Source: a virus
DNA length: 20,987 nt
Strand: one strand, 5' to 3'
Virus record (IMG/VR): IMGVR_UViG_3300010883_000625
Span: 1-20,987 of that record
The notes beneath the pieces are model-generated. The model ran no database searches. It was not told where the DNA came from and was given only the letters and a program-made list of their open reading frames with translations. Below are positions 3,042-20,987 of this stretch, piece after piece (the first letter of the stretch is position 1; every line of letters starts with the position of its first letter). Position numbers and translations under genes: made by a program.

Positions 3042-3118
3042 TGGTCGGAGATGCTGGATTCGAACCAACGACCCTTCGCTCCCAAAGCGAATGCGCTACC
3101 AGACTGCGCCAATCTCCG
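3042..3118 (-). tRNA. tRNA-Pro (anticodon TGG), CCA encoded
   Basis: The full 77-nt cloverleaf can be folded by eye: acceptor CGGAGAT/ATCTCCG, D stem GCGC/GCGC, anticodon stem TTCGC/GCGAA with loop TTTGGGA (anticodon TGG), 5-nt variable loop, T stem GTTGG/CCAGC (one G-U) with loop TTCGAAT, discriminator A, and an encoded 3' CCA. It follows tRNA-Arg after only 3 nt, so both are presumably processed from one transcript. No separate promoter is visible. Confidence 0.97.
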
Positions 3119-3121
3119 TTT

Positions 3122-3198
3122 TGGTGCGCCCGAAGAGATTCGAACTCCTGACATCTAGTTTCGTAGACTAGCACTCTATCCGGCTGAGTTACGGGCGC
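3122..3198 (-). tRNA. tRNA-Arg (anticodon ACG), CCA encoded
   Basis: The 77-nt cloverleaf folds as acceptor GCGCCCG/CGGGCGC, D stem ACTC/GAGT, anticodon stem CTAGT/ACTAG with loop CTACGAA (anticodon ACG, normally A34 to inosine), T stem AGGAG/CTCTT (one G-U) with loop TTCGAAT, discriminator A, and encoded CCA. It begins 5 nt after the stop codon of the 87-aa gene, so the pair sits inside the packaging-gene transcript. Confidence 0.97.
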
Positions 3199-5497: not shown

Positions 5498-7591
5498 TTA
5501 AAATGCGATTGGCATAAGTGTAGTTGAATACTCATCATCATCATCAGGTAACTGAGATTCACCAGCGTATCCACAACCATACATCGTGCCGTCGGTCATT
5601 TTGACAAACAGACCGCCTTCAGAACCAGAGCCAACTACATAGAAACTTTCCGCTTTCTTACGATGCATTAATACGGGTGTAAACCAATACGTCGTGCTAG
5701 AGGTATTTCCTTGTGCTAGTTGTCCGTTACCGCCATACCCGACAGAGTGCATTGAGCCATCTGCAAGTAACACAATGGTGAATCCATACGATCCCGCCCC
5801 ACCATTTTGAAAATCTACAATTGGAGAACGTCCCGCCAAACCAAATGATTCTAATTCAGCAGTCACATCGTTTCCATTAGGATCAGCAAAACATTCAGTA
5901 AATCCGGTACGTTGTGTTGTATCAGCGCCTACACCTAATTGACCATAGCCATTGTAGCCGGTTGCCCACAATGTGCCATCAAGTTTAAGAGCAAACGTGT
6001 TGTTATAGTCAGGATTTCTCATCCAAACTTTTGACACATTAGAAAGAACAAGAGTCGGTGTATATTGGTTAGTTGTGCCACCATAGCCAAGATTACCATA
6101 ACCATTGTAACCCCATGTGTATAAGTTATTAGCATCATCAATAGCGTATGAAAGACCTGATGTACTACATCCCGTTCCTATGTCTCTTATTGTGATACCA
6201 TTATCGTAGAAATAACTAATCAACGTGGCGGTACTCAAGTTAGTAGTATTTCCTTGTCCTAGTTGACCCGTGTTGTTATAACCCCAAGAATAAACATTAC
6301 CATCACTTTTAAGAGCCAAGAGATGACTATGTTGGCAATCACTTTTAGCAATTTTAGTAATACTTGTTAGTCCACTTACTTGAACAAAGCGATATGAATT
6401 TGTAGTATTCCCATTTCCAATTTGACCATAAGCATTATAACCCGCGGCGTGGACTGTACCGTCACTACACAACACATGATTTGACATGTAATTTCGATTA
6501 CCACCAGCTGCTGCGTATTGTGTGACTATCTTACCGTTAATGGAGTTAGCTGACTCTCCTGAACAATAGTATGGAACATGTGTGTCCGTGACATTACCAC
6601 GACCAACCTCTCCGTAGTCGTTCTGACCCCAAGCCCAGAAGCCACCATCTTCATCAATAGAGACTGATCCGTGATCATACATACCACAAATGTAAGTCAT
6701 CTTTTTTGAGCCAAATGGGAAAGCAACTGCCGTAGGATAACTTCTATCATAGATGTCTACACCACGTCCCGGACACCAGTTTTCACCACGTCCCCAAAAC
6801 CTGATACTTCCGTCGTCCATAAGGGCATTACCTTTACGGTACATTACATTAGACAATGGGTCTTGATGCCCAATCACCCGCATTCCGGCTCGACTATCAC
6901 TAGTTCCCCAATATGGAAACCCATTTGTATCAATCTTTAAAACATCTCCGGGCGCACCTGAACTTAATGAAGTCAATGATGTGCCATTATAATATATAAG
7001 ATCACCGGGATTATTAGTTATATTGTCAACACCTTGAGCCATCAACGCCCAACCCGTGCCATAAGCTACGGTCGAGGATGTGTACTTTACGTTTGCGCGT
7101 CCACCCATTGCAGCGTGAGAAGCACAATAATAAAACAAAGTGTTAGGAGTAGTGGCGCTTGTTACAATTGTAACTGTTGCCCCGATATTACCAGCCGTTC
7201 CCGACGATGTAACACCGGTCACATACGCCACACCACTTCCATGTGTTCCATCAGCCGTAATAGAGAAAGCTAAAGGGTGTCCGGTCATAGTCGAATCAGC
7301 AACATTAAACACATAAGTTCCACCTTTTAACAGATGTAATGTGTCTTGTTGTGTTCCGTCTACAAATAATTTATTATCACCACCAACTACACCGACAGTT
7401 AGAACGTGGTTTGTTGTCGTCGCAACCAATGTCCCCGTTACAGTTGAAGGGTTGACGCCGGTAGTCGCATCAGTATCACACACATATGTGCTTGAGTTAT
7501 ACGAGACTACATCTTGTTTATTATACGTTGTAGCGGGGGCGTAAACACCCTTCCAGCTAAACGCTACTTTACCTAGTGAAATTGTTGCCAT
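5498..7591 (-). CDS. RCC1-repeat beta-propeller tail protein with cupredoxin-like insert, probable receptor-binding protein
   Basis: The 697-aa product opens with a carbohydrate-binding-like module (about residues 8-40: W13, GVYAPATTY, DVVSYNSSTYVC). It is followed by a cupredoxin-like domain (about 58-170) with H105, C156, H159 and M162 in the type 1 copper order (HPL...YYCASHAAMGG). After a linker (DLIYYNGTS...GDVLKI) come RCC1-type repeats from about 255 to the C-terminus. Eight WG/GYNxxGQLGxGNTT-like motifs start near 266, 321, 383, 436, 493, 545, 618 and 673, which suits a seven-bladed propeller with overlapping closure. It lies 11 nt from its 569-aa paralogue, in the place where T7-like phages encode distal fibre parts. 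AAGGA precedes the ATG. Domain calls are by eye; the receptor-binding role is inferred. Confidence 0.85.
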   Translation of the reverse strand: MATISLGKVAFSWKGVYAPATTYNKQDVVSYNSSTYVCDTDATTGVNPSTVTGTLVATTTNHVLTVGVVGGDNKLFVDGTQQDTLHLLKGGTYVFNVADSTMTGHPLAFSITADGTHGSGVAYVTGVTSSGTAGNIGATVTIVTSATTPNTLFYYCASHAAMGGRANVKYTSSTVAYGTGWALMAQGVDNITNNPGDLIYYNGTSLTSLSSGAPGDVLKIDTNGFPYWGTSDSRAGMRVIGHQDPLSNVMYRKGNALMDDGSIRFWGRGENWCPGRGVDIYDRSYPTAVAFPFGSKKMTYICGMYDHGSVSIDEDGGFWAWGQNDYGEVGRGNVTDTHVPYYCSGESANSINGKIVTQYAAAGGNRNYMSNHVLCSDGTVHAAGYNAYGQIGNGNTTNSYRFVQVSGLTSITKIAKSDCQHSHLLALKSDGNVYSWGYNNTGQLGQGNTTNLSTATLISYFYDNGITIRDIGTGCSTSGLSYAIDDANNLYTWGYNGYGNLGYGGTTNQYTPTLVLSNVSKVWMRNPDYNNTFALKLDGTLWATGYNGYGQLGVGADTTQRTGFTECFADPNGNDVTAELESFGLAGRSPIVDFQNGGAGSYGFTIVLLADGSMHSVGYGGNGQLAQGNTSSTTYWFTPVLMHRKKAESFYVVGSGSEGGLFVKMTDGTMYGCGYAGESQLPDDDDEYSTTLMPIAF

Positions 7592-7602
7592 TATTTATTT
7601 CC

Positions 7603-9312
7603 TTAAAATTTAACGGGTGAGGGGGTTGTGCCATACTCTTGCTCATCTTCACGACCAAGTTGACCATAATTATCGTAGCCGGTTGAATAGACGTTTCCAT
7701 CGTATCCTAAACCATACCAAGTGTTGTAGCTTGAGGCTTGTTGACAGTAGCCACCAACGACCCATTCTTTAATGGGTTTATTAAGTCTCATCAAGGTGTC
7801 ATACTCACTACCTCTATAACCACTTAAAATAGTACCGTTGCCACCCACTCCCGTCAGGTTATAACCTCCGACCATGAATGATCCGTTAGTCTTTTCGACC
7901 ATCCAAAAACGACCATAATTAATACCTTGTGTTACAAAATATTTATTATTGTAACCAAATTCGGTTAAGCGTGTCCAGACGTTGGCTATTGAACCGACCG
8001 CTGCGGCAGTCCCGCCCGTTCCCGTTCCCGTCATGTATCCCATGTACCACATTGAGCCATCATTTTTAATGCCCATCATGGTTGAATAGTTACCGTTCCA
8101 ACAACGTATTTGCTTCCAATTGTTTCCATTTGCACGTCCATCGGCAATCATACCACCGGGATGATAAACCTTTGGGGTGACGCCGTATCCACCTTCATTA
8201 CCGCCCCAATGCATTATTTCGCCGTTTTCAAATAATATAACGGCGGTGCGATATTCACCCGTTCCAGACCCGTGAAAGTAAGAACCATGAAACACAAAAT
8301 CTTTTGCGGGGTATACGGCAGTTTGTGAAATTAAAGTATGTTTAGCGGATCGCCAATCAGCCACGGGGTATACGTAATTACCCGCGCTATTGTATTCACC
8401 ACAAATATACATTTTACCGGTCGCGTCTTTCAACACAGTTACCATGTAATCACCACCAGCTAAATAAGCTCTAACCATCGGCACTTCCGCTGATTTAACC
8501 ATCAATGTGGGAGTAGTGATGTTGTAGTCCCCACTATTATTTGTTTGAGTCCCAGCACAAGATTGTCTATTTTTACCCGTATAATACATTCGACCATCGT
8601 CGGTTCTAAAAACTGTAGAATAGGCGGCGGCTTCACCATTGTTCGTATAAACATCAGTTACTTTTGCATCAGCGGGAAGGTCACCTTGTCCATTAATTAG
8701 AACCGGAGTCCATTGATTTGTTGTTCCATTGCGACCAATTTGTCCAAAGTTGTTATAACCCCAACCCCAGACTTTACCTAAATGATCAATCGCATGGCAA
8801 TGGTGTCCTCTTGGATATACATCCACAATACGCCCAGCACCAGCGGGGAAATGAATTTGAGTCGGTCTGTTAGTGTTCTGATCTGCCCGTGTTTTACCAC
8901 CAAGTGCGCCATAAATTGTACGCCCAACTCCCATAACTGTACCATCAGACATAATAAAATACATATTTTGATAACACCCCGTACCAGAGTTGTCTGCATA
9001 GTCCATTTTAGGAAGCTTTGCGACACCTACACGACGAGGGTTGTCGGTTGGGAAAGCAAACTCAGGCGTCCCAAGACCGTTAATTTCAAGAGTTTGGTCT
9101 ACAATACCAGACACTACTGTCGTGTCATCGGGCGTAAGTATCTCACCTTTTGCCGTACCGTTTTGTTGATCTTCTACATGTTTAACCCACGTAGTTCCGT
9201 TGTAAGCGTACATCCCCCCGTCCTTACGAGTAACGTCTCCGTCAACGTAGGTCGTGGTGGAAGAATACTCACCCTTCCAACGGTAGCCGATCTTTGTATA
9301 GTCAATTTGCAT
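7603..9312 (-). CDS. RCC1-repeat beta-propeller tail protein, probable receptor-binding protein
   Basis: The 569-aa product shares its N-terminal module with the downstream protein: KIGYRWKGEYSSTTTYVDGD here, KVAFSWKGVYAPATTYNKQD there. It lacks the cupredoxin insert. Residues about 95-569 carry diverged RCC1-type repeats, clearest at 184 (WGYNNFGQIGRNGTT), 482 (GGYNLTGVGGNGT) and 545 (GYDNYGQLG), with weaker ones near 129, 245, 304, 369 and 425. Each is preceded by a strand-forming segment such as DGRMYYTG or NGEIMHWG. The C-terminus (EDEQEYGTTPSPVKF) matches the paralogue's end. The gene follows the gp17-like anchor by 11 nt, with AAAGGAG before the ATG. RCC1 propellers bind proteins or ligands on one face, so a role in host recognition is reasonable but unproven. 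Confidence 0.82.
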   Translation of the reverse strand: MQIDYTKIGYRWKGEYSSTTTYVDGDVTRKDGGMYAYNGTTWVKHVEDQQNGTAKGEILTPDDTTVVSGIVDQTLEINGLGTPEFAFPTDNPRRVGVAKLPKMDYADNSGTGCYQNMYFIMSDGTVMGVGRTIYGALGGKTRADQNTNRPTQIHFPAGAGRIVDVYPRGHHCHAIDHLGKVWGWGYNNFGQIGRNGTTNQWTPVLINGQGDLPADAKVTDVYTNNGEAAAYSTVFRTDDGRMYYTGKNRQSCAGTQTNNSGDYNITTPTLMVKSAEVPMVRAYLAGGDYMVTVLKDATGKMYICGEYNSAGNYVYPVADWRSAKHTLISQTAVYPAKDFVFHGSYFHGSGTGEYRTAVILFENGEIMHWGGNEGGYGVTPKVYHPGGMIADGRANGNNWKQIRCWNGNYSTMMGIKNDGSMWYMGYMTGTGTGGTAAAVGSIANVWTRLTEFGYNNKYFVTQGINYGRFWMVEKTNGSFMVGGYNLTGVGGNGTILSGYRGSEYDTLMRLNKPIKEWVVGGYCQQASSYNTWYGLGYDGNVYSTGYDNYGQLGREDEQEYGTTPSPVKF

Positions 9313-9323
9313 AATCGTCTCCT

Positions 9324-10229
9324 TTAGATGGTGTATGCTAAGTTATTAGAAGTATCCACACCAAATGCGATATTCTCACCAAGTGTCCAAGTTTTATAAT
9401 CATTTACGTCAGCGTCAATCACACCATAATCTACTATGATTTCTTGACCACTTGTTGACATTTTAAGTCCAAAGAATTGAGGAACTGCTACAGAGTTAAC
9501 AAGATCATAGCCCGTCCCCGCACTATTAATTTTTAAGAAATAATTAGCAGTTAATGTTCCCGGAAGTCCAGCAACAGACAGAGCCGCTTCTGCCGCGACT
9601 TGTGCCGCTTCCGCAGCAACTTTTGCAGCTTCAGCCGCAACTTTGTCCGCAGTAGCACCTGACGAATCACTCGCGTATCCTTCAGCTAGTGTAGCTTGAG
9701 CAGTTGCAATAACTGCTTGAGCGGTTGCAGTTGATACTTGTGTGGCAGTAGCAGAGAGAACGTATGATTTATTAGCAGCGTCGGTGTCGTCCACCGGGGT
9801 TGCCAAGTTAATAATACGAGATGTACCAGCGTCCCAATTGTTAGCAGAGTTACGAGCCATCGCAACTTCTTTAATGTCGTTCGCTTCTTGTGCTAGGTAA
9901 AATCCTTGCAAACTATCTTGGTCGAGAATCTCTTCAGAAAGAACTGATCCCGTCTGATAATCCACAAGTCGTGTTCCCGGAGAAGTCTCACGTTGGAACA
10001 CCATTGAATCACCAATAGCGGCGGGTGTGGTTAGAATGATTCGACTAGATAAAGAAGCGTCAAATTGATAGTCACCTACTACCGAAGCAGTAGATTGTGA
10101 TAATAGTGTACCGTTTTTATAAACGAGAACGTGACCTTGAGCAATGTACGGGAAGGGGATATCGAAGTGCGTCGCATCAGTTCCCGCCAAGCTAGTCACC
10201 GCAACCACTTCACGTGCAAAAGCTGTCAT
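9324..10229 (-). CDS. Short tail fibre with T7 gp17-like tail-attachment domain
   Basis: Residues 1-130 match the N-terminal tail-attachment domain of T7 gp17: FDIPFPYI (22-29), VLVYKNG, then RETSPGTRLVDYQTGSVLSE (80-99) and a QEANDIKE helix. Residues 160-222 are alanine-rich with a repeated K-VAAEAA heptad pattern, a likely trimeric coiled-coil shaft. The end (223-301) is a small domain with GLPGTL and FFGLKM. T7 gp17 is 553 aa. This protein has no long shaft or receptor-binding tip, so it probably acts as an anchor to which the two downstream propeller proteins attach. The ATG at 10229 has AAGGAA upstream. A strong hairpin separates it from the gp16-like gene. Confidence 0.88.
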   Translation of the reverse strand: MTAFAREVVAVTSLAGTDATHFDIPFPYIAQGHVLVYKNGTLLSQSTASVVGDYQFDASLSSRIILTTPAAIGDSMVFQRETSPGTRLVDYQTGSVLSEEILDQDSLQGFYLAQEANDIKEVAMARNSANNWDAGTSRIINLATPVDDTDAANKSYVLSATATQVSTATAQAVIATAQATLAEGYASDSSGATADKVAAEAAKVAAEAAQVAAEAALSVAGLPGTLTANYFLKINSAGTGYDLVNSVAVPQFFGLKMSTSGQEIIVDYGVIDADVNDYKTWTLGENIAFGVDTSNNLAYTI

Positions 10230-10277: not shown

Positions 10278-13200
10278 TTAGTTTTCATTACCCATCGCAA
10301 CATTTGCAAGTTGGTAATACAATTTAAATGGCATCAACTTAATCAAGTTATCTTGCATAGCATCAGTATCTCCTCGAACAGAAGCATCTTTCATGTCCAT
10401 AAGGTCTTGAAGTAGACCCCCGGTTGGGCCACCTACTAACGAGAATCTGTTACGCTCACTTGAGTAACGCGATCCAACTCCACCACCCATTATGTTTAAT
10501 TCTTTGGTGATTTGAGCCATAGGTGTCGAGAGCCACATTAAGAATCCTGAACGATCCATAATGTCATAACCCCATTCTGCGGGAGTTCTGTCTTTAATTT
10601 CACCTTTACGTTTAAGATCAGTTGCTGCCACAACGGTGTAGCCTAGTAACGCTTGTATATTGAGTGTCATGAAAGCGTGTAAATCTCCGTATGTTGCCAT
10701 ACGTTGAAATGCCGGTAACATGTATTTTGTCATTGAGACAAACCCATATGTCTGAAACTGTAGTAGAGCCTTACCGAATCCACGAGACATAAAGAAAGGA
10801 GTATCTCCCTTACTTGGTGTCATAATAGCACGTGTAGCGGTGTGATCTAATGCAGTAAACACGGCATCATAAGCCCGTTGACCCTCAAGCCCCTCATTTA
10901 ACCACCTCCCCATTCCAAGTTCATAAACACCTTGATCCAATTCTGGTGGGTGTTTGCTCATCATTTTCTGGATTGATCTTGCTTCATCTCTACCTATACC
11001 CAAAGATGCAAGTTCTGCAATCTGTTGTTCCGCAGAGCCGCCTTTTTGGGCAGAAGCCGTGTCAAAAAGTTTACTATAGTTTTTCATCTTAGCGACAAGA
11101 TTATGTTGCATCTCCATCATAGCTAAAGCTTTCATACGAGTGTTCCACCAGCGCATCCCAGATACCACGTTTGTAGTCTCTGTTAGACCTCCCAAGCTAC
11201 GATCTATAATACTTGTACTGTAGTGTTTCAATGTGCCTTGATCGCCAATGCCTACCTTTGATCCTAAATCTTCAACACCCATCATTTTCATGTTGGAACT
11301 TGAAGACATTAATCTTTCACTATAGATAGCAATTCTAGAAATCTCTGGGCTTCTTAGACCAGCTAGTGCTTTGTTTGATTGCTTAAAGTTTTTCGCAGCA
11401 AACGTTCCCCAACCTGACACAAAAAGAACGTTGGATGCATCAGTTAGTGATGGTATGATAAACCCTGATCCGTAACGAACGTAGTTAAAAGAACGTGCAG
11501 TTTTACCCATCCAAGAAAGCCAACCTTCAGGGTCTATCGGTTTACCGTATTGTCCTAGAAGATTTAGAATACCATTTTCAATATCTGATTTAGCTTCATC
11601 CGCTTTCTTCTGTATCTTATCTCGTTGTATTTTAGATTTACCAGATTTAAGAAGATCAAAATCGCCTTGGACTTCTGCCTTCAAATCTTCAACAATATCT
11701 TTTTCAGACTTATGTCCAAACGTGTCTCTTAGAGCCATACGTGGTGATAAATCTTCAGCACTTCTTCGCATAGCTGACATCAGGTCATCATCTAGGATAC
11801 CTAAACGATAAGCCTCAAGACGTTGTTCATTAGTAAGAACGATTTGACGTTTCTTAGTTCTACCAGAGGCAGCAATAAGTTCTCCGTCCCAGCCACCAAA
11901 TGGATCACGCTTTCCGTCTGATAGTTTTCCTACTAATTCTTCAATGTAGGTGTAAAGTGGAGATCGATTTGCTTGTCTTTTGTAATCTTTCTTTGCTTTC
12001 TTAGCACCTCGTTTGCTTTGTCCAGCTTCTTTATTTTTAAGTTTAAGTTCATCCGATAAAATTTTTCTATTTTTTGTAACACTAGCTTTAGCCATTTTAG
12101 CTGCGGCTAGAGCCACACCAACTTTTTCCAATTGTGGATCAAGTCTAGCTAGTGTGCTATCAATTTTAGAAAGACGTTTATTATGGTTGTTCAAACGTTC
12201 ACGAAGAGTCGCAAGACGTCGCGAAGATACCGGAAGTTTTGCCGCTTTCTCAACCGCTTCTCCCAATGCATCTTCACCTGATCTGGCAAGTTCGTTGTCA
12301 GCTTTAGTGACCATTGTTCGGGAATCAGCAATGTCAGCTTTAGACGCCAACACACCTTCACCCTCGACCATCTTCATCAAAGCTTCAGCTTCTTTAACCT
12401 CTGTGATTCGTTTCTTTTTGATACCACTAGTTCTAGAAGATATCTCATGGTATTGATTCATCCGGGTAATAAGTTCTGCTTCAGCTTCTTTCAATTCAGT
12501 CTGAGTACGTTGTTTTTCTAACTGTACTTTTTCTTTTTCTAAAGTGATTGCATCACGTTGTCCTTGTCGATACTTAATAATCTTCTCGACTTCAGCAACA
12601 GTTGCATTTTTAATGTCGGTGTTGTTTTTACGTAAGTCTCTTGCCGCTAAAACCGCGGCTCTACGTGCTTCATATAATTTTTCTTCAGCTAGAGAAAGTT
12701 TTAATTCCGCTTGTGCTTCTAAACTTCGATCAACATTACCAGACCAATCTTCCAGAACTTCTTGTTTTTTCTCAAAGCCCTTATCAATATCATATTTAAC
12801 TTCTTTGACATTTTTACCAGCTATTATTTGGTCACCTTTAATAGTAACTTCTTCTTTACCTAATTTATTAAACTGATCTTCAGTCATTAAATGATTTTCA
12901 AGAAGAAATTCATCACTTGGCTTCTTAGCAAAAACGCTATGAAAGAATGCAAGTGATTCTGTACGATTCCCTTTAATAGCTTTACTACTCCAAAGTTGCG
13001 CCATGACGTAATCTTGGTCGCCTCTAGTAGCCATACCAAGACCTTCAAGTAAATCTATTTGAGCGTCGTGATAAGCCCTAGTATCATCTGCAAGCTTTCG
13101 AGCGTTTCGCTCAATAACTAGCCAACCATCATCACCGAATCGTGTTTTAAATCCCGCAATCATTTCGTCAGTTAAATTATTAAAATTCATTTCACGGGCA

Positions 13201-14639
13201 ATTGCGATAAATTCAGCATCGTCAAAATTAGTCCCACTACCGCGCTCGACCGGTTGCTTTTTACCAGATTGGTTTTTACCTTTTAATATGTCTTTTCCTA
13301 ATTGACTAGCGCGAGTAGCAGTCTCAGATGCTCTCTGTCCAACGCTTGAGAATGTCTTACCTTTTAACTCAGCCAAATCTATACGAGTCTGAATAATAGT
13401 GTCTTTTGCTCTAAGGGCTACTTGCTCATGACTATCTAATAGACGTTTAGTTTTATCTTCAATAGATGCTTCAGCTTTACCAAATTGCATATGATTCAAT
13501 AAGATACCACCGGTATCATAAAGTTTAGCGGTAATCAAAGCCATCTTACCAGAAGCACTTGTAAGTCCTCTAATCAACGGACTTGTTCCACCAATATATC
13601 TATTCTGTAAAACTTTAACACCACCTCGACCTAAAGCTTTAACGCCAGAACGTAATGCGCCTTGTGCCATAAGTGCAGACGGTTTGACGATTCTACCAGC
13701 TTCAGCAGCGCTTTTAGTTGCCATCGCACCTACAGAACGAGCAACCGGATTTTCAGCTACTACTTCAAATGTGGCTTTACCGCCTTTAAAGATTGGTTTT
13801 AATACTGCACTATTTGCAAGTCCGCTACCAAAATTAGCAACACCCATGTATACGGGGTTTTCAGGATTCATCCAATGATTAGGATTTGACACATGTAGTG
13901 AACTGAGTGGGTCACGGGCAGCTTTCCAGATACCTACACCACCTCCTAGCACACCACCAGCCGCAAGGTTTATCCCGGCTTCCATTGCAGTACGTAAGTC
14001 TTGTCGCATCTGTAGTGCGCCTTCTTGCACTCCTTGGGCAATCATCCCGTTCAACATGTACGTCCCGATTTTCTTTGCAGTTCCCGCCTTTTTAATTACG
14101 TTTACGCCCGGTACAAGTGTTGAAACATCTATAAAAGAAGCTAGACCTCCAACCAACATCCCCATAAAACTACCACCATGTAGTTCATTACGGGCTTTTT
14201 GCATTTGACGAAGACGGTTTACGCGGTCATCAAATTGATTTGGGCCTTGAACATCGTCAAACATTCCATTACGAATCCAGACTTCTGCATCTCTTAGTTC
14301 ATCTTTCGCCTTATCAAAATATTTGTAAGGGTTGAATCTATTTTCAGAATCATAGAATAGTTTTAACTCTGGTGTAACCACGTCGTCGGTATTATAGGGA
14401 CGGGCATACTTATCTTTAATAAACATACCATATCGAAGAGAATCACCAATTATAGTTTCTTGCATGTACGTTTCGTATCCGGTAGCGAAGAATCCAAGTG
14501 GTTCGATAACTTGCTCTGTGGAGTAATACGGTATAGATAAATGCTTAACTGTGTCTGTGTAGTTAGACATGCGATTTTGGTCTTCTACATCAACATCAGC
14601 GTTTAATGGTGTTGCACCATAGGTATATTCTTCAGCCAT
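10278..14639 (-). CDS. Internal virion protein, T7 gp16-like (ejection protein)
   Basis: The 1453-aa product is the longest in the window and sits just before the tail fibre, as T7 gp16 (1318 aa) does. In T7 this protein leaves the head first and forms the trans-envelope channel for DNA entry. Near residues 155-175 there is a hydrophobic, glycine-rich stretch (GMLVGGLASFIDVSTLVPGV) like membrane-active parts of gp16-type proteins. About residues 630-890 form a very long charged coiled coil (KEKVQLEKQRTQTELKEAEA and similar). The C-terminal third contains ALLQFQTYGFVSMTKYMLPA and FSLVGGPTGGLLQDL, which I recognise from podovirus internal core proteins. The lytic domain of T7 gp16 is absent here and is supplied by the preceding gene, 2 nt away. 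The assignment rests on position, size and partial similarity. Confidence 0.82.
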   Translation of the reverse strand: MAEEYTYGATPLNADVDVEDQNRMSNYTDTVKHLSIPYYSTEQVIEPLGFFATGYETYMQETIIGDSLRYGMFIKDKYARPYNTDDVVTPELKLFYDSENRFNPYKYFDKAKDELRDAEVWIRNGMFDDVQGPNQFDDRVNRLRQMQKARNELHGGSFMGMLVGGLASFIDVSTLVPGVNVIKKAGTAKKIGTYMLNGMIAQGVQEGALQMRQDLRTAMEAGINLAAGGVLGGGVGIWKAARDPLSSLHVSNPNHWMNPENPVYMGVANFGSGLANSAVLKPIFKGGKATFEVVAENPVARSVGAMATKSAAEAGRIVKPSALMAQGALRSGVKALGRGGVKVLQNRYIGGTSPLIRGLTSASGKMALITAKLYDTGGILLNHMQFGKAEASIEDKTKRLLDSHEQVALRAKDTIIQTRIDLAELKGKTFSSVGQRASETATRASQLGKDILKGKNQSGKKQPVERGSGTNFDDAEFIAIAREMNFNNLTDEMIAGFKTRFGDDGWLVIERNARKLADDTRAYHDAQIDLLEGLGMATRGDQDYVMAQLWSSKAIKGNRTESLAFFHSVFAKKPSDEFLLENHLMTEDQFNKLGKEEVTIKGDQIIAGKNVKEVKYDIDKGFEKKQEVLEDWSGNVDRSLEAQAELKLSLAEEKLYEARRAAVLAARDLRKNNTDIKNATVAEVEKIIKYRQGQRDAITLEKEKVQLEKQRTQTELKEAEAELITRMNQYHEISSRTSGIKKKRITEVKEAEALMKMVEGEGVLASKADIADSRTMVTKADNELARSGEDALGEAVEKAAKLPVSSRRLATLRERLNNHNKRLSKIDSTLARLDPQLEKVGVALAAAKMAKASVTKNRKILSDELKLKNKEAGQSKRGAKKAKKDYKRQANRSPLYTYIEELVGKLSDGKRDPFGGWDGELIAASGRTKKRQIVLTNEQRLEAYRLGILDDDLMSAMRRSAEDLSPRMALRDTFGHKSEKDIVEDLKAEVQGDFDLLKSGKSKIQRDKIQKKADEAKSDIENGILNLLGQYGKPIDPEGWLSWMGKTARSFNYVRYGSGFIIPSLTDASNVLFVSGWGTFAAKNFKQSNKALAGLRSPEISRIAIYSERLMSSSSNMKMMGVEDLGSKVGIGDQGTLKHYSTSIIDRSLGGLTETTNVVSGMRWWNTRMKALAMMEMQHNLVAKMKNYSKLFDTASAQKGGSAEQQIAELASLGIGRDEARSIQKMMSKHPPELDQGVYELGMGRWLNEGLEGQRAYDAVFTALDHTATRAIMTPSKGDTPFFMSRGFGKALLQFQTYGFVSMTKYMLPAFQRMATYGDLHAFMTLNIQALLGYTVVAATDLKRKGEIKDRTPAEWGYDIMDRSGFLMWLSTPMAQITKELNIMGGGVGSRYSSERNRFSLVGGPTGGLLQDLMDMKDASVRGDTDAMQDNLIKLMPFKLYYQLANVAMGNEN

Positions 14640-14641
14640 TC

Positions 14642-16402
14642 TTATTTACTCCCTAGGTTAACTCTGAATCCAAACTTCGCCGTTTCCCCTTCATCTCCAA
14701 ATAATGATCTAAACCATCGATAGTAATATTTTTCATCTTGTTCCCCATCAGGTAGATCACGAGTTAAGTTCTTTTTAAAATTATAATCATCCATTTCTTT
14801 ATTATCATTCCCAACAATAAGACTTCCATATTCGTCTCTAGTAAAAGTAAATTGACCAATAGTCATTAAAGCTTCCAGACGTGGGTCACGAAAATCACTT
14901 GCCATTCCCGCAAGAGCCGAAACAAAACCAAACATTCCCCCATACGCAGCGTCATGAAGTTTTGAAGCGTTAGGGCGTTCTACAGTCATTCCTTTCTTTC
15001 TTAAAAGTGCTGGAAGTTTATAAAGTCCTCGCTTGAAGTTAACCATTTCAGATGCATACATTCCGTTGACATCCATCTCTCCAAACAATTCATCCCAATC
15101 TTCGTACTGACAAGATTTTTTACCTTTAGATTCGCAGAACTCTGCCATCTGTGTAAGAACGTCTTGGGCTTCAGGACTAAAGAAACTAGCACCATAAGTT
15201 TGTTTTCCAGCGGGACTCCAATTTTTTGTAGAACCTTCCCCAAGAAAAGGATCTAAAATTAGACTACTAGCTTTTTTAATCAAGCCTTCAGTCCCCCAGA
15301 TCATGACCGCACGAACGGGGGCGGGGATGTAATGGTCAGGGGATATACCCCATAAAAATTTATCGACTTTAGATAATGGCACATCAATACCCGGTCTTCC
15401 AAACATCTTTTCAATGGACGCGTTAGTCTCTCGTTTTTCCTTAACCTCTTCCGGCATTGTGGGAGGTACGGGAAATTCTGAAGCTGGTTCAATTTCTTCT
15501 AAAGGTGTTTCTTCTATCTCGAAAGAAAACTTTTCCGCTAGTAATGATAGTTTATCTATAATTGTATCAGTAACTCCTATAGGTGGTGTTACAGACATTT
15601 TAACTTTTGCAAAAGGTTTCAGATCACCCGCTTGCGCTGATGAAATTCCAAGTAGTGATGCAAAATTAAATGAGTCACTTTTTCGGTAGTCTTGTCCTTT
15701 TACAATATTAGCTACTTCTTCATTATTACCAAAGAATTGATCATGTTCTCTTTTACGTCTTGCATCTAAGGCTGATAGTTTATTACCATTACTTAGGTTA
15801 AGTATCTCATAACTGACGGACGCTGCGTCTCCTTTTTTAAGGTGATCAACAAGATTTGGGCCAATAAGGGCGGGTGAATTGTAAGCCATAGATACAAGAG
15901 CGATACGTTGACTAGCATTTAAGGGTACTCCTTCTAATCTATCTTGTACAATTTTCTCAGACTCTTGAACTTTATAATCAAACAATCGACGTGACTGCGC
16001 CTCATCTAAATTGATTTCACCAGCTAGAAGTTTTTTATATTTTTCAGGACTGAACCCTAAGACGTCTTGTACAATTTTAGGGTTAGCTTCAAGATTAGTC
16101 CCATACCCCACATGTTTAATACCCTCGACCATGTGGACTCTACCGTTGTAACCTTCTTCTGTGGTGATGAATTGAAAACGATTTTCACTATACTCACCGG
16201 GCTTCCCAAGACTCGCTGGGCCACTATAAGAAAGCGAGGAGTTAAAAATATTATCATACACATCGGTAGGATTACTTTGGTCAAACTTTTTATAGTGTGC
16301 GGGAACTGTGACGTTCTCCGTTGGGGGTAATTTACCGTCAACAACAAGATCATTGTGTAGAGTTTCATATCCCACTTTTAACTCTTCTTCTAATTCTGGC
16401 AT
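14642..16402 (-). CDS. Internal virion protein with T4-type (GH24) lysozyme domain
   Basis: The 586-aa product has a GH24 lysozyme domain at about residues 76-226. TTEEGYNG (catalytic Glu candidate E83), then KHVGYGTNL corresponding to the GIGH segment of T4 lysozyme, then a helical lobe with SQRIALVSMAYNSPALIG and ALDARRKREHDQFFG. It should cut the glycan strands of the cell wall locally during DNA injection. By eye, the T4 lysozyme Thr26 position is His97 here. The rest has an acidic, proline-rich linker (about 300-330: EIEPASEFPVPPTMPEE) and a C-terminal region of unknown fold. In T7 the muralytic domain is fused to gp16 and has a different (SLT) fold; here it is on its own gene directly before the gp16-like gene. 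AGGAG lies 6 nt before the ATG. Confidence 0.85.
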   Translation of the reverse strand: MPELEEELKVGYETLHNDLVVDGKLPPTENVTVPAHYKKFDQSNPTDVYDNIFNSSLSYSGPASLGKPGEYSENRFQFITTEEGYNGRVHMVEGIKHVGYGTNLEANPKIVQDVLGFSPEKYKKLLAGEINLDEAQSRRLFDYKVQESEKIVQDRLEGVPLNASQRIALVSMAYNSPALIGPNLVDHLKKGDAASVSYEILNLSNGNKLSALDARRKREHDQFFGNNEEVANIVKGQDYRKSDSFNFASLLGISSAQAGDLKPFAKVKMSVTPPIGVTDTIIDKLSLLAEKFSFEIEETPLEEIEPASEFPVPPTMPEEVKEKRETNASIEKMFGRPGIDVPLSKVDKFLWGISPDHYIPAPVRAVMIWGTEGLIKKASSLILDPFLGEGSTKNWSPAGKQTYGASFFSPEAQDVLTQMAEFCESKGKKSCQYEDWDELFGEMDVNGMYASEMVNFKRGLYKLPALLRKKGMTVERPNASKLHDAAYGGMFGFVSALAGMASDFRDPRLEALMTIGQFTFTRDEYGSLIVGNDNKEMDDYNFKKNLTRDLPDGEQDEKYYYRWFRSLFGDEGETAKFGFRVNLGSK

Positions 16403-16411
16403 AATCTACTC

Positions 16412-19072
16412 CTAATTTTGTGGTTTACCGTTTTGAATAAACTTTAACAACATCTCGTTGCTTATAGTTTTCTTATCTTCGTTTTGAAAATGTGGTTGAA
16501 CTCCTAACTCGTAAGATTGAATTTTCCCGCCAACGGCTGAGTATACCGGCATTAAAATAATATAGGGGTTAATATACTTTTGTGCTAGGATTAAGTCTTG
16601 TGAATACACCCCGGTAAATTTTACAGTACCTTCCGATTGCCATTCAGTCCAACCAAAATTACCACCATACGTTCCATCTTCTTTTATTTTTGAAACTTCT
16701 TTTACCGGAATATCTACATTTGTAGACAAACTAATAGGAACACTAGAATTAACTGAATCATAAATTGCAAAACCATGAATGTAATCTGGTGTCATCTCCT
16801 TTTCAAAACCATTTAACACGTTACCCGTTGGGAACATAGCTTTAATTCTAAAGTTCTTATGTGGACGGATCATAATGTCCCCACCAATCGAAAGACCGGG
16901 AAACCCTTCTGTAATATTTGTAGCTACTTCTTGCATATTCATGATGACGTCTTCAGTTCCACCAGAACCATTCCTGACATTATTACCAATAGGAACTCTT
17001 GTGTTTGTTGTATTACTATGCATCACTAGACCCGGCTCTTGTATTGAGGCTTGTCCATTCATAAACACTATTTGGTCTTTTAGTTTAAGTTTAATTTGCT
17101 CTGTGATTATTGCTCGATTTTTATTAGAGTCAGTTTGATTCCATGTACCATTCACTTTCATATCTAATATGATAGGCTCTATGTATCCTTCAATTCTGGC
17201 GGATAGCCTTGATGAAATTGGCATATCGCTAAAACTAAAGAACCCGCCTTCACCAACCATACCTTCCACTTCATCGGATAAAGTTTCAGCCATCCACTTC
17301 TGAAACATAATCTGACGCTCATTTTTAGAATTGTAATCGTCTTTATCATTAGACACTTCACTAGCGTAAAATGCCGGTAGCCATCCGCCTTTATCATCCA
17401 TTTCTTTTTTCATTTGGGCAATTTTGGCGGCATCGATAGTTGGGTCAATATTTGAATTAGCGTTTTTTATTACACCAGCAAGCGATGCTTGAAATTCTAC
17501 GTCACCTTTAAATAGTCCATCTTTCATCTCTGAAAGGTCTTCTGATGGATCAATTTGTTTTAGAAAGTCAAGTGACGCCCTTCTTATATTTTTATCATTT
17601 GACAGAAGACCACTTTTAATTTTCCCTTTTAGGTCATCCCCAATTACATCTACACCATAACGCTTAATAGCCCCTCGAACAACTTGTGCAAAAGCTACGG
17701 AGGATTCATCTCCTTGATAAAAATCCGTAGTCGGACTTAGAGACATTGTAGCAAGGGTTGTTTTAGCATCATCATAAGTTAAACTACCAGACTTACCGCT
17801 AATACCGTTTTGGATAAGGTTGGATCGATTGACTTTAAATGTAGCAGCTTTTATTAGATGTTTATTTATACTCGATCTAAGCGCCTTTATTTGTGGGGTA
17901 GTAACACCATTTGTTGATGCTAACTTTAAATAACCGCCCTCCTCATCTTTCATAAACTTTTGTAGTGCGCTAGTCATAGCGTCTGGATCGTTTTCGGTTG
18001 CTGCAACTATTTGATTAATCTTAGAAGTAGCTAGAGTAACCGCATCTGATCCTTGTTGGGTCATGTAAGATTGGTTTTCTTTATTTATTGTTTTTAACAA
18101 TTCCGACACTTGTGATGGAAAACGTTCTTTGAGAGATTGCATTCTTGCCCCCTCATCCATCGCACCACTATCGTCCGTAGTTGGGAATATACCCTTATTT
18201 AGAAACACTCGAAATCGTTTTAGAGCGTTTGGGTTTAATCTCGCACCTTTAACCATTGCCGAAAGAACACGTGCTGATACTGCACCATTAGTTTGTCCCG
18301 GCATGATTGATTTCATCTTCGCCATACTTTGAGTATAAGCATTATGTAGATCACTCTCCGTTTCAAAAGATGTAACTACGCCATCAGTAATTTGAGTTTC
18401 TATTACCGCTCTATTTCTTTTTATAACTTCAATTTGTTTTTCAGCACTTAGTTTAACAATATTTTTTTGGAAAGCCGCTTGAGCGTGTAGATTTACTGTT
18501 GGGTCTTTAGCGCCATCTGCATAATTATTTTTCCACCATTCACTAGCTTTACTGTCAAAATCTGCTGGATTCCAATCGGCTGATTTAATTAACATATCTG
18601 CATACATATCAGCCCCTAATTGTGAGCCTACTGATTCTTTATATGCTTGGTTATAGTGAAGGTTAGTACTCCCAGATTCTGTTACATCAAAGTTTTTTAG
18701 GCGCTGGGCGTTGGTCGGCTTTGTATCCATAACATTACCGGCAGCGTCGTATTCAGTATTTATAGTTTGACCCATAGCTTTCTTATTTCCAGCTATAGTC
18801 CCTAATTTTTTCTGCTCGTCCGCGAATCTGGTAGCTTCAAGTTTATCAATTTCATGCGCAGATTTTGCCATATTCTGCATGGTGTTCTGCATTGTTCCAA
18901 AGAAGTTATTAAACGCGTTGGATAATGTAGCTTCACCCGCCATGATGTCTGTGCCAACCATAGATGATACGTGCTTTTTAATAGCGTGGTTAACTTTAGC
19001 ACTACCAACTTCTAGTTTGGTATTACCAGAAAGCTGAGACAGAACTGACTTTGTACGGGCTTGTCTAGCCAT
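16412..19072 (-). CDS. Internal virion protein, T7 gp15-like (core/ejection protein)
   Basis: The 886-aa product lies between the gp14-like and lysozyme-domain genes, the position of T7 gp15 (747 aa), which forms the middle of the ejected channel. The N-terminal region is helical with repeated Gln/Asn/Met motifs (FFGTMQNTMQNMAKSAHEID) and LEATRFADEQKKLGTIAGNK, a pattern seen in podovirus core proteins. Most of the rest is mixed helix with no catalytic motif. The C-terminal 200 residues are richer in beta-like and Gly/Asn segments (NVRNGSGGTEDVIMNMQEVA). The ATG at 19072 has AAGGAG about 7 nt upstream. The call is mainly from order and size, since this family diverges quickly. Confidence 0.75.
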   Translation of the reverse strand: MARQARTKSVLSQLSGNTKLEVGSAKVNHAIKKHVSSMVGTDIMAGEATLSNAFNNFFGTMQNTMQNMAKSAHEIDKLEATRFADEQKKLGTIAGNKKAMGQTINTEYDAAGNVMDTKPTNAQRLKNFDVTESGSTNLHYNQAYKESVGSQLGADMYADMLIKSADWNPADFDSKASEWWKNNYADGAKDPTVNLHAQAAFQKNIVKLSAEKQIEVIKRNRAVIETQITDGVVTSFETESDLHNAYTQSMAKMKSIMPGQTNGAVSARVLSAMVKGARLNPNALKRFRVFLNKGIFPTTDDSGAMDEGARMQSLKERFPSQVSELLKTINKENQSYMTQQGSDAVTLATSKINQIVAATENDPDAMTSALQKFMKDEEGGYLKLASTNGVTTPQIKALRSSINKHLIKAATFKVNRSNLIQNGISGKSGSLTYDDAKTTLATMSLSPTTDFYQGDESSVAFAQVVRGAIKRYGVDVIGDDLKGKIKSGLLSNDKNIRRASLDFLKQIDPSEDLSEMKDGLFKGDVEFQASLAGVIKNANSNIDPTIDAAKIAQMKKEMDDKGGWLPAFYASEVSNDKDDYNSKNERQIMFQKWMAETLSDEVEGMVGEGGFFSFSDMPISSRLSARIEGYIEPIILDMKVNGTWNQTDSNKNRAIITEQIKLKLKDQIVFMNGQASIQEPGLVMHSNTTNTRVPIGNNVRNGSGGTEDVIMNMQEVATNITEGFPGLSIGGDIMIRPHKNFRIKAMFPTGNVLNGFEKEMTPDYIHGFAIYDSVNSSVPISLSTNVDIPVKEVSKIKEDGTYGGNFGWTEWQSEGTVKFTGVYSQDLILAQKYINPYIILMPVYSAVGGKIQSYELGVQPHFQNEDKKTISNEMLLKFIQNGKPQN

Positions 19073-19099
19073 TAAGATTCTCCTTCGTTGAATTTTAGA

Positions 19100-19702
19100 T
19101 TATGTAAATAAATCAGTAGTCGCCCACCTTTTAATAGGTGCATCACCTCTTATAGCAGCAAGTTGATCTTGTCTAGCGGTGTATGACTGACCAGCAGATA
19201 GTGATGTACTTGCGAACCCTAAGATAGCACCGGTCTTCTTAGCAGAAGCTTCAGCCATAACGTTCCCAGCTTGATTCTCAGCTTGTGTGGTGACGTTACT
19301 GTAGTTCTGTTCGGACGCTGCTTTATTAGACTCAAGCCCCGCTAATGCTCTTGTGGTGTTTTTGTCAATACGCGTTATGTTTAACGACTCGCCATACAAC
19401 TCCTCAAACATAATTAAACCTAATGAACTGTTAGACAACGACGTCTCTGACGCTTGTAGTGACCCGATGTCTTCATTAGATTGACGAACACGATCTGATT
19501 GTTGATCTAAATTATCTTCTTGTTCTTCAGCAATCTTTCGATTGGCTTCAGCATACTCTGCTTCAGCTTGAAGCTTAGACGCGTCGTATTGTGCTTTTGC
19601 TTGCTTGGCAGCGTTCTGTTCCATACGTTTAGCTTGATCCATAGAAGCCTTGGCTTGCATGGCACTCGAAGCTATCATCATAATTGTAATAGGATCACAC
19701 AT
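19100..19702 (-). CDS. Internal virion protein, T7 gp14-like
   Basis: The 200-aa product (T7 gp14 is 196 aa) begins MCDPITIMMIASSAMQAKAS, the short MC...hydrophobic opening typical of gp14 proteins. It continues as a long alanine/glutamine/glutamate-rich helical region (AKQAKAQYDASKLQAEAEYA) and ends with a glycine/serine-rich segment (GAILGFASTSLSAGQSYTA). In T7, gp14 is ejected and forms the outer-membrane part of the DNA channel. It starts 5 nt after the gp12-like stop, whose last codons supply AGGGG as ribosome binding site, and is followed by the gp15-like gene. Confidence 0.85.
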   Translation of the reverse strand: MCDPITIMMIASSAMQAKASMDQAKRMEQNAAKQAKAQYDASKLQAEAEYAEANRKIAEEQEDNLDQQSDRVRQSNEDIGSLQASETSLSNSSLGLIMFEELYGESLNITRIDKNTTRALAGLESNKAASEQNYSNVTTQAENQAGNVMAEASAKKTGAILGFASTSLSAGQSYTARQDQLAAIRGDAPIKRWATTDLFT

Positions 19703-19707
19703 AATAA

Positions 19708-20987
19708 TTACCCCTGTCTTGTGACTTCATTAAAGAACCCAACGTAATCGATGGATGTTATATTCATTGGTTTTTCGGAATTGTTAAATATACGTATTCC
19801 GACTGTTTTACCATCCGATTTTATGGGAACTCTAAATCCACCTAATGCAGAGATAGCCGCGACGCCAACTTTTGAATCACCTGAACCAACAACACGACCG
19901 TTGAAGGTGTATACATCAGGAGTCCTAAACTCTGGTGTTACTTCACACCTAAAGAACCCCGTCTCTTTGTAGTTACACACAATGTTTCTAATTTGAAAAC
20001 GTCCACCGGTCATTGTTAACTTTTGATTATTAGCGTCTCTTGGAAACAATTTAGACAATGTTACGGAAGATGTATAGGTTTCTCCAAGGATAACTTGACC
20101 CCCGGTATAATCACCAGCAGCAGTAACTGTTGTAGTGGATGGGTAAGAAACGTTCAAAACCTCACCAACTTGTCCCGCTGGGAAATCGGTAGAAAGAACC
20201 ACACGTGTTAGATTATTATGAGCGTATGGTGCAGTCCATGTGGTTAAGTTATTGACGGCGGTATACACACCGGTTGCGGTGGTTTGTCGATCCATAGATA
20301 TTTGATATGGGTGTTTCTCGTCAGACAACTCATATCGTAAGAATGTCTTTTCAAATACTACTGTACCGTTTCGTGACAGAACCATATACATTTCGCCATC
20401 TATAACTGCCATCCACTTTATTTTAGATGAAGTACCGTACGTCCATTTTGACCAAGCGGATTGCGCTTTAGTCTCACCGTCTACATACATCTTATAAATA
20501 TACAACGCTGATCTATCTGTTTTAGATAAAAGCATGATCATATCATTAGTTGAGTCCCCGGTCATTCGGACTAACGGGGCTGGGATATAACCTAAAGCGT
20601 GTAATGTAACATCTTGTGCGATGTTGGAGACGGAGTTATCATCGTATTGATATTCAAAAACGATAGCGTCTCTACCAGACTTCGCGGCAAAGTACAAAGT
20701 GTTACCTAATGTGATTGGCTCACATGAATCCTCTGTCAAATATGATGTAGATAAATCCACAGTAGCGTTTGATGGTGTAAAAGTTGCATCACCAGACACC
20801 TCGAACTGTGCTTTATTTGACGTTAAGAATAATGATTTTCTAAATCCAACGGCGTGTTTCAAATCGTTCACGCTCGACGAAGATGCCACGAGTCCAAACG
20901 CGTCACTATCAAGCGACTGAGTTGAGAAATCAGGCCAGAAGGTAAAATATTGTGACGACTGCGACATAAAAACTGTCTCACCTGAAA
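19708..20987 (-). CDS. Tail tubular protein B / nozzle (T7 gp12-like), N-terminus outside window
   Basis: This is the C-terminal part of the protein; T7 gp12 is 794 aa. The frame stays open through the window edge, and the codons before the internal ATG at 20967 read SGETVF, matching SGENVI in T7 gp12, so that ATG is not the start. Further matches to T7 gp12 are QYFTFWPDF, LKHAVGF, QFEVSG, EDSCEPITLGNTLYFA, the SAWSKW segment, and the end GIRIFNNSEKPMNITSIDYVGF. Gp12 forms the nozzle of the short tail and, with gp11, holds the fibres. The stop is TAA 19710-19708. Confidence 0.93.
   Translation of the reverse strand, partial: SGETVFMSQSSQYFTFWPDFSTQSLDSDAFGLVASSSSVNDLKHAVGFRKSLFLTSNKAQFEVSGDATFTPSNATVDLSTSYLTEDSCEPITLGNTLYFAAKSGRDAIVFEYQYDDNSVSNIAQDVTLHALGYIPAPLVRMTGDSTNDMIMLLSKTDRSALYIYKMYVDGETKAQSAWSKWTYGTSSKIKWMAVIDGEMYMVLSRNGTVVFEKTFLRYELSDEKHPYQISMDRQTTATGVYTAVNNLTTWTAPYAHNNLTRVVLSTDFPAGQVGEVLNVSYPSTTTVTAAGDYTGGQVILGETYTSSVTLSKLFPRDANNQKLTMTGGRFQIRNIVCNYKETGFFRCEVTPEFRTPDVYTFNGRVVGSGDSKVGVAAISALGGFRVPIKSDGKTVGIRIFNNSEKPMNITSIDYVGFFNEVTRQG

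Follow-up and report, generated by a model that had tools for sequence, protein, structure and literature searches.

Propeller-shaped receptor-binding heads and RCC1-type proteins are both already known in phages. Branched multi-adhesin phage tails combine an anchor with separately encoded receptor-binding proteins, as is proposed for the locus described here, and their heads are trimeric beta-helix tailspikes. The fibres of phages PollyC and SeaP1-SeaP4 (phrog_4219-like) consist of a gp17-type start and an RCC1 head and are encoded after a gp16-type gene; the PollyC protein is named T7 tail-fibre-like in BFVD. Here we analyse a comparable arrangement in the virus record IMGVR_UViG_3300010883_000625, using a window of 20,987 bases in which the structural and packaging region is read on the minus strand. 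In this window, the gene for a gp17-type tail anchor of 301 amino acids (aa; 9324..10229, minus strand) is followed by those for two RCC1-repeat propeller proteins, A (569 aa; 7603..9312, minus strand) and B (697 aa; 5498..7591, minus strand). Unlike A and B, the PollyC and SeaP fibres are single fused proteins with about seven units (six detected and one found by eye), and they lack the adaptor that ends the anchor of the window. We consider it probable that the three genes specify a tail end in which an anchor with its adaptor carries paired RCC1 propeller heads that bind the receptor.

Other described systems have parts of this arrangement in common with the window. The GAP32-related jumbo phages (GAP32 gp001, 121Q, PBEC04, phAPEC6) encode RCC1/BLIP-II-type repeats according to the available text on them, and the accessible part of PMC5259590 places gp001 in the virion. 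However, these jumbo-phage proteins are stand-alone (385 aa in GAP32 and PBECO4), with many copies in 121Q, PBEC04, and phAPEC6, and the available excerpts describe no anchor-adaptor cassette. The phi11 receptor-binding protein (five blades, homotrimer), the C-terminal domain of phiKZ gp131 (seven blades), and the K1F tailspike contain propellers, but in the excerpts at hand these are not described as RCC1 and are single proteins rather than an adaptor-linked pair. UVR8, the HERC RLD, and RCC1 itself combine the RCC1 repeat with the blade fold, but have seven blades, as opposed to the eight predicted here, and no tail modules. The lectin fibres of extracellular contractile injection systems are tail-derived and bear propellers in the available portion of PMC12923769; in contrast to the proteins of the window, they have collagen-like shafts, and RCC1 is unmentioned in that paper (0 occurrences). 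Because RCC1 domains of phages are already annotated in PHROGs and BFVD, the T7-type fibre of PollyC among them, the bare observation of such a domain is not new. Among the matches listed in open-access literature searches on RCC1, propellers, and PollyC, no cassette was found in which two co-inherited propellers of eight units are combined with a change of anchor.

The RCC1 identity of A and B had been proposed from the letters of the window alone; this sequence-only reading gave the coordinates and lengths of the two adjacent genes exactly, and the profile matches are far above chance. The family PF00415 covers six stretches in B (E 7.6e-32) and three in A (E 1.1e-18), the scores of the pair being 110.1 and 67.9 bits compared to a curated cut-off of 21.7, and PF25390 is matched by B above its cut-off of 150 (162.5 bits) and by A below it (93.7 bits). 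The proposed paralogy was likewise borne out: A and B align with a BLASTP E value of 6e-11, an N-terminal module that we call WKG provides another, weak match (E 0.002), the C-termini are aligned, and the two proteins reach 153 and 97 bits against each other's family profile. Upstream, the N-terminal domain of the anchor (residues 12-159) matches PF03906, Phage_T7_tail, with 84.5 bits against a cut-off of 25.2 (E 8.5e-24), as well as many PHROG tail-fibre families; beyond this domain no further Pfam family is listed, and the remainder looks, on visual inspection, like a coiled coil followed by the adaptor (residues 243-301; 9327..9503, minus strand). By these sequence comparisons, A and B are RCC1-repeat paralogues located directly behind a gp17-type gene. 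The phage is T7-like, as had been supposed: apart from the anchor, its terminase matches PF22530, and a T7-type RNA polymerase (PF00940) is present on 4/4 longer contigs tested, one from the same species and three from relatives. It is probably marine.

Relatives of A and B were collected from IMG/VR with alignments, one set being the best 80 of 244. The 74 matches to A represent 37 distinct A genes, told apart by their first 90 residues; near pairs are among them, as is L002, which belongs to the same species as the window. All 37 are preceded by an open reading frame (ORF), and the common C-terminal adaptor of about 59 aa was detected in 36 of these, L121 being missed, with a hidden Markov model (HMM) built from six sequences, five of them from phages also counted, and with matches accepted up to an independent E value (i-E) of 0.05. 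A downstream ORF was available for 36 A genes and is B in 35/36; in L055, B is an overlapping ORF. A search with the anchor only gave 15 loci, of which L002 and L018-L020 are of the window's own kind and L023 and L024 are nearly identical; the 10 with the adaptor (L002, L018-L026) all run on into A, within which L022 ends. No RCC1 gene was found in the fetched DNA of the remaining five (L027-L031), which have no adaptor or a weak one, the terminase being reached only in L029 and L031. The pairing of A and B has exceptions, given that L072 (7459-9653) lacks A and has just one RCC1 protein, which is B-like, behind an anchor whose end resembles the adaptor weakly (i-E 0.047).

The cassette is found next to tail genes of more than one kind. 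Judged by eye, L158 is a lambda-like prophage that borders on bacterial genes at one side; siphophage-type neighbours were also seen in L043, with a J-type tail protein nearby, and in L122, with a tape-measure protein. Clustering of 37 anchor N-termini by BLAST on the first 110 residues yielded 11 clusters, one of them a truncated-ORF artefact, that is, ten BLAST-unrelated types. When these types were assigned by eye, 10 states required 11 changes on both the A and the B tree; when assigned by BLAST, nine states on 31 labelled tips required 10 changes for A and 11 for B. At least 10 changes of anchor are needed on trees in which some forks are weakly supported and the cut or truncated anchors of L045 and L056 are left unlabelled. 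Gene order and sequence comparison together show that adaptor, A, and B are a cassette and that it has become attached to many tail anchors of different types. Host changes of phages can be explained in part by receptor-binding modules that are exchanged; in the present case, what is exchanged appears to be a propeller pair that brings along an adaptor and crosses between tail types. The sequence of this adaptor can serve as a marker for finding such heads in unannotated phages.

Whereas anchors change, the two propeller genes stay together. In a tree computed from 33 complete pairs, 20 of them below 60% A identity, together with SeaP3, A and B fall on separate sides with support of 100/99, and the groups within the two sides correspond to each other; SeaP3 is placed with B, at the end of a long branch. 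The identity matrices of A and B are strongly correlated, with a Mantel r of 0.91 (n 33) and 0.84 for the dereplicated set (n 20), and 0/2000 permutations gave a value as high. The separate clades and the matrix correlation point to one old duplication followed by joint inheritance. The sequence-only reading suggested that the duplication might provide two host specificities, which is not supported: because the duplication is older than the whole family, the pairing is near-constant, and the trees mirror each other, complementary parts of one device fit better.

The N-terminal WKG module, comprising residues 1-50 of A (9163..9312, minus strand) and 1-58 of B (7418..7591, minus strand), is common to both proteins and is the most conserved part of A in 34 sequences. 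The main reason to view it as a docking part is its presence on other heads: in L031, a weak adaptor-like anchor end (i-E 0.02) is followed by four WKG-module proteins with heads other than RCC1, and in L030 another such end is followed by one WKG-module protein with a different head, where the locus is cut. We propose on this basis that the WKG module may be the docking part of A and B. The four proteins of L031 are successive (L031:2422-6501), stand after a gp17-type anchor, and have differing non-RCC1 ends.

The sequence-only reading counted about eight motifs per gene and expected a seven-bladed propeller. An HMM of the repeat unit, built from the A/B family itself, found eight units each in A and B of the window, in agreement with the motif count, and eight in 31/34 A sequences (28/33 A and 29/33 B at a stricter cut-off); fewer than eight A units were detectable in L025, L129, and L144, and nine were counted in one B protein, among them a spurious one inside the cupredoxin-like module discussed below. 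At each of the eight positions, the glycine that closes the unit core is kept in 29 to 34 of the 34 A sequences. AlphaFold, with 34 sequences as input for A and 6 for B, predicted a propeller in both cases (for A, predicted local distance difference test score (pLDDT) 77.9 and predicted template modelling score (pTM) 0.77), with eight blade strand pairs and a closing strand, as counted from the listed strands, at residues 93-569 of A (7606..9036, minus strand) and 235-697 of B (5501..6889, minus strand). The best PDB matches of both models are UVR8 and other RCC1-type propellers: the B model has a Foldseek E value of 2e-25 and a VIA Z of 29, with 326-347 residues at 3.5-4.0 Å in the first ten rows; the A model has a VIA Z of 27 (340 residues, 3.8 Å); UVR8 chains match the two models over 332-350 residues at 3.5-4.2 Å; and HERC and RPGR chains match the A model at 4.6-4.9 Å. 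These matches are seven-bladed, and alignment with such deviations is expected if A and B have one extra blade. The predicted fold is a propeller of the RCC1/UVR8 type, and the predicted number of blades is eight rather than the seven of RCC1 and UVR8. An eight-bladed RCC1 propeller was not seen in the accessible part of PMC9218822.

The strongest outside support for a receptor-binding role comes from the Pseudomonas fusions of gp17 and RCC1 and from a head swap. PollyC and SeaP1-SeaP4 align along the full SeaP3 protein, from its gp17-type start, which scores 23 bits for PF03906, just under the cut-off of 25.2, to its RCC1 end (PF25390, 189.7 bits). In SeaD1, which was isolated on the same host, Pseudomonas protegens Pf-5, only residues 1-162 are common with the SeaP3-type protein (65%), after which another head follows, and stretches of DNA on both sides of this gene match at 80-84% identity. 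Together with gene order and the adaptor, these cases support the earlier view that the RCC1 heads occupy the receptor-binding position, behind a short anchor of the gp17 type. The monomeric heads suggested at that point are not supported: T7 gp17 is a trimer, fibre-type segments precede both propellers of the window, the PollyC/SeaP3 head sits on a gp17-type start, and the propeller-bearing receptor-binding protein of phi11 is a homotrimer (available text of PMC4901313). Nor are propellers as foreign to T7-like phages as was then thought, since the tailspike of K1F, a phage that we take to be T7-like, has a beta-propeller as the active site (available text of PMC12632334). Both phi11 and K1F provide a precedent for propellers as receptor-binding heads.

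In the model that we favour, the genes at 10229-5498 (minus strand) would specify the end of a T7-like tail with which the phage adheres to its host. Fixation to the tail would be the task of the anchor's N-terminal domain, a gp17-type domain of a known family; the adaptor would hold A and B by their WKG modules and short fibre segments; and each protein would present its predicted eight-bladed RCC1-type propeller as the receptor-binding surface. The fibre-type segment of B is a linker at residues 171-234 (6890..7081, minus strand) with the pattern GxxGDVLKIDxxGxPxW, which is conserved within the B family and resembles segments of the anchor and A by eye. We infer the docking between adaptor and WKG module from their co-occurrence and from the other WKG-module proteins in the same position. 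As the sequences show, the pair goes back to one old duplication and has been co-inherited, and the adaptor-A-B unit has become joined to many anchors; B has an optional cupredoxin-like module. Receptor binding by A and B is, on these comparisons, likely. For the phage genes to which PHROGs gives the label 'regulator of chromosome condensation', this provides a better-supported candidate role, testable in the cultured Pseudomonas phages.

Several observations weigh against this model. Confidence in the B structure is only moderate (pLDDT 64.5, pTM 0.60). Between the window and L015, all ratios of nonsynonymous to synonymous substitution rates (dN/dS) are below 0.25, the highest being 0.236 in the B propeller, indicating purifying selection throughout. 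Hypervariable loops, looked for in the A propeller in the same comparison as the sequence-only reading had suggested, were not found: the proportion of nonsynonymous differences (pN) is 0.151 in loops versus 0.121 in strands. The protein encoded at 14642-16402 differs more (pN 0.195) than A (0.124) and B (0.135). Finally, the authors of the phAPEC6 study suggested that RCC1 proteins of phages may organise DNA (PMC7247149, in the part available).

Among the alternatives, the one that fares best differs from our model in the role of one protein only: a single adhesin, with the other protein, more likely A, which is beside the anchor, acting as a connector or assembly factor for B. The fixed order anchor-A-B, the near-obligate pairing, and the mirrored trees would all be compatible with such a division of labour, as would the restriction of the cupredoxin-like module to B (19/33 B, 0/33 A). 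However, A and B are alike in having a WKG module, a fibre segment, and an eight-unit propeller, and in both the propeller diverges faster than the N-terminal module. Specifically, between the window and L015, pN is 0.047 for residues 1-92 of A and 0.138 for its propeller, 0.061 for residues 1-58 of B and 0.149 for its propeller, and 0.120-0.123 for the stretches in between. We regard the single-adhesin alternative as possible although doubtful. Alternatively, the propellers of A and B could be depolymerases that cut surface polysaccharides rather than plain binders, considering that the propeller of the K1F tailspike is catalytic (PMC12632334, available part) and that the WKG module weakly resembles CBM5/12 (in B, CBM_5_12 at 17.9 bits, cut-off 26.2). 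Against this speaks that the family searches list neither glycosidases nor lyases for the two proteins and that the solved propellers closest to the models are of the UVR8, HERC, and RCC1 types, with fucose-binding lectins ranking lower. UVR8, HERC, and RCC1 propellers are protein binders. An enzymatic role thus appears unlikely. That A and B organise DNA or act within the host cell, as the RCC1 name in PHROGs and the phAPEC6 proposal (PMC7247149, available part) might imply, is very improbable given their place after tail anchors in a tail-fibre gene order, which also makes a DNA-condensing role unlikely, and given the mass-spectrometric detection of an RCC1-type protein in the GAP32 virion (PMC5259590, available part), which fits a structural role.

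B contains an additional part, a cupredoxin-like module at residues 59-168 (7088..7417, minus strand) with a His and a Cys-x2-His-x2-Met motif. Across the family, this module lies before the propeller in 11 of the 19 B proteins that have it and after unit 1, inside the propeller, in 8. By motif, 12/19 modules, that of the window among them, have the complete His, Cys, His, Met set, and in a chosen set of 11 aligned modules the copper-ligand residues are invariant and in type-1 order. The C-x2-H-x2-M spacing is that of amicyanin. However, PF00127 and PF13473 have no match in the window, although both match in control genomes; a PDB profile search with the module gave nothing significant; and hhalign returned p 0.006 versus five C-x2-H-x2-M cupredoxins and 0.0075 versus 21 PF00127 domains, compared to 0.44 versus a reversed control and 0.13 versus PKD, with all probabilities, controls included, below 7%. 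With a strong motif and weak profile support, the module is called cupredoxin-like here. Related modules occur in cyanophage and pelagiphage proteins, with 43-55% identity to parts of B residues 65-200 in S-TIM66, a MedDCM phage, HTVC028P, and Baldr and 35% in Mosig, but there they belong to other tail or structural proteins; L027 and L029 have the module within a long gp17. The module of B was not found in the open-access literature searched on cupredoxin-like and plastocyanin-like phage proteins. A bolder scenario, in which the pair is an obligate two-component tail tip with eight-bladed RCC1 heads, adaptor-A-B has moved as one unit between podoviral and siphoviral tails, and a functional type-1 copper site in B aids adhesion in some phages, strikes us as improbable in its entirety. 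The 7 modules without the complete ligand set (L121, L134, L135, L138, L141, L142, L145) all occur with one anchor type, of which they are all the modules, and in two separate B lineages. Matches to antibodies, and the V-set annotation of a single cyanophage record, probably stem from the YYC stretch.

Besides the anchor, A, and B, the minus strand of the window encodes a phage-lysozyme protein, several small proteins, a terminase, and an endolysin of the M15 type, all assigned by family; position alone was the basis for naming the genes at 10278-14639 and 16412-20967. Compared to phage records, all 2538 terminase matches are below 60% identity, the best among 20 listed reaching 41.4%, and near DNA matches are confined to a tRNA gene; the single genome match is a prophage in a metagenome-assembled genome labelled Bacteroidetes (27% identity). 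Genes for tRNA-Pro and tRNA-Arg precede the terminase (3042-3198, minus strand), and the longest terminase ORF, with a TTG start, overlaps tRNA-Pro; because the alignments with more distant relatives begin at residue 30, translation probably starts further inside the ORF. The 586-aa protein at 14642-16402 (minus strand) lies in the internal-virion-protein region and has a phage lysozyme domain (PF00959). The 886-aa protein at 16412-19072 (minus strand) is 47% identical to its L015 counterpart, versus about 68-86% for neighbouring genes. Two copies of a short sequence that surrounds a possible start codon lie about 200 bases apart (10-60 and 212-252) and are possibly the starts of two small minus-strand genes. 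A small 128-aa protein of L063 (10967-11353) is 78% identical to that of the window, although this phage is otherwise distant (terminase identity 42%).

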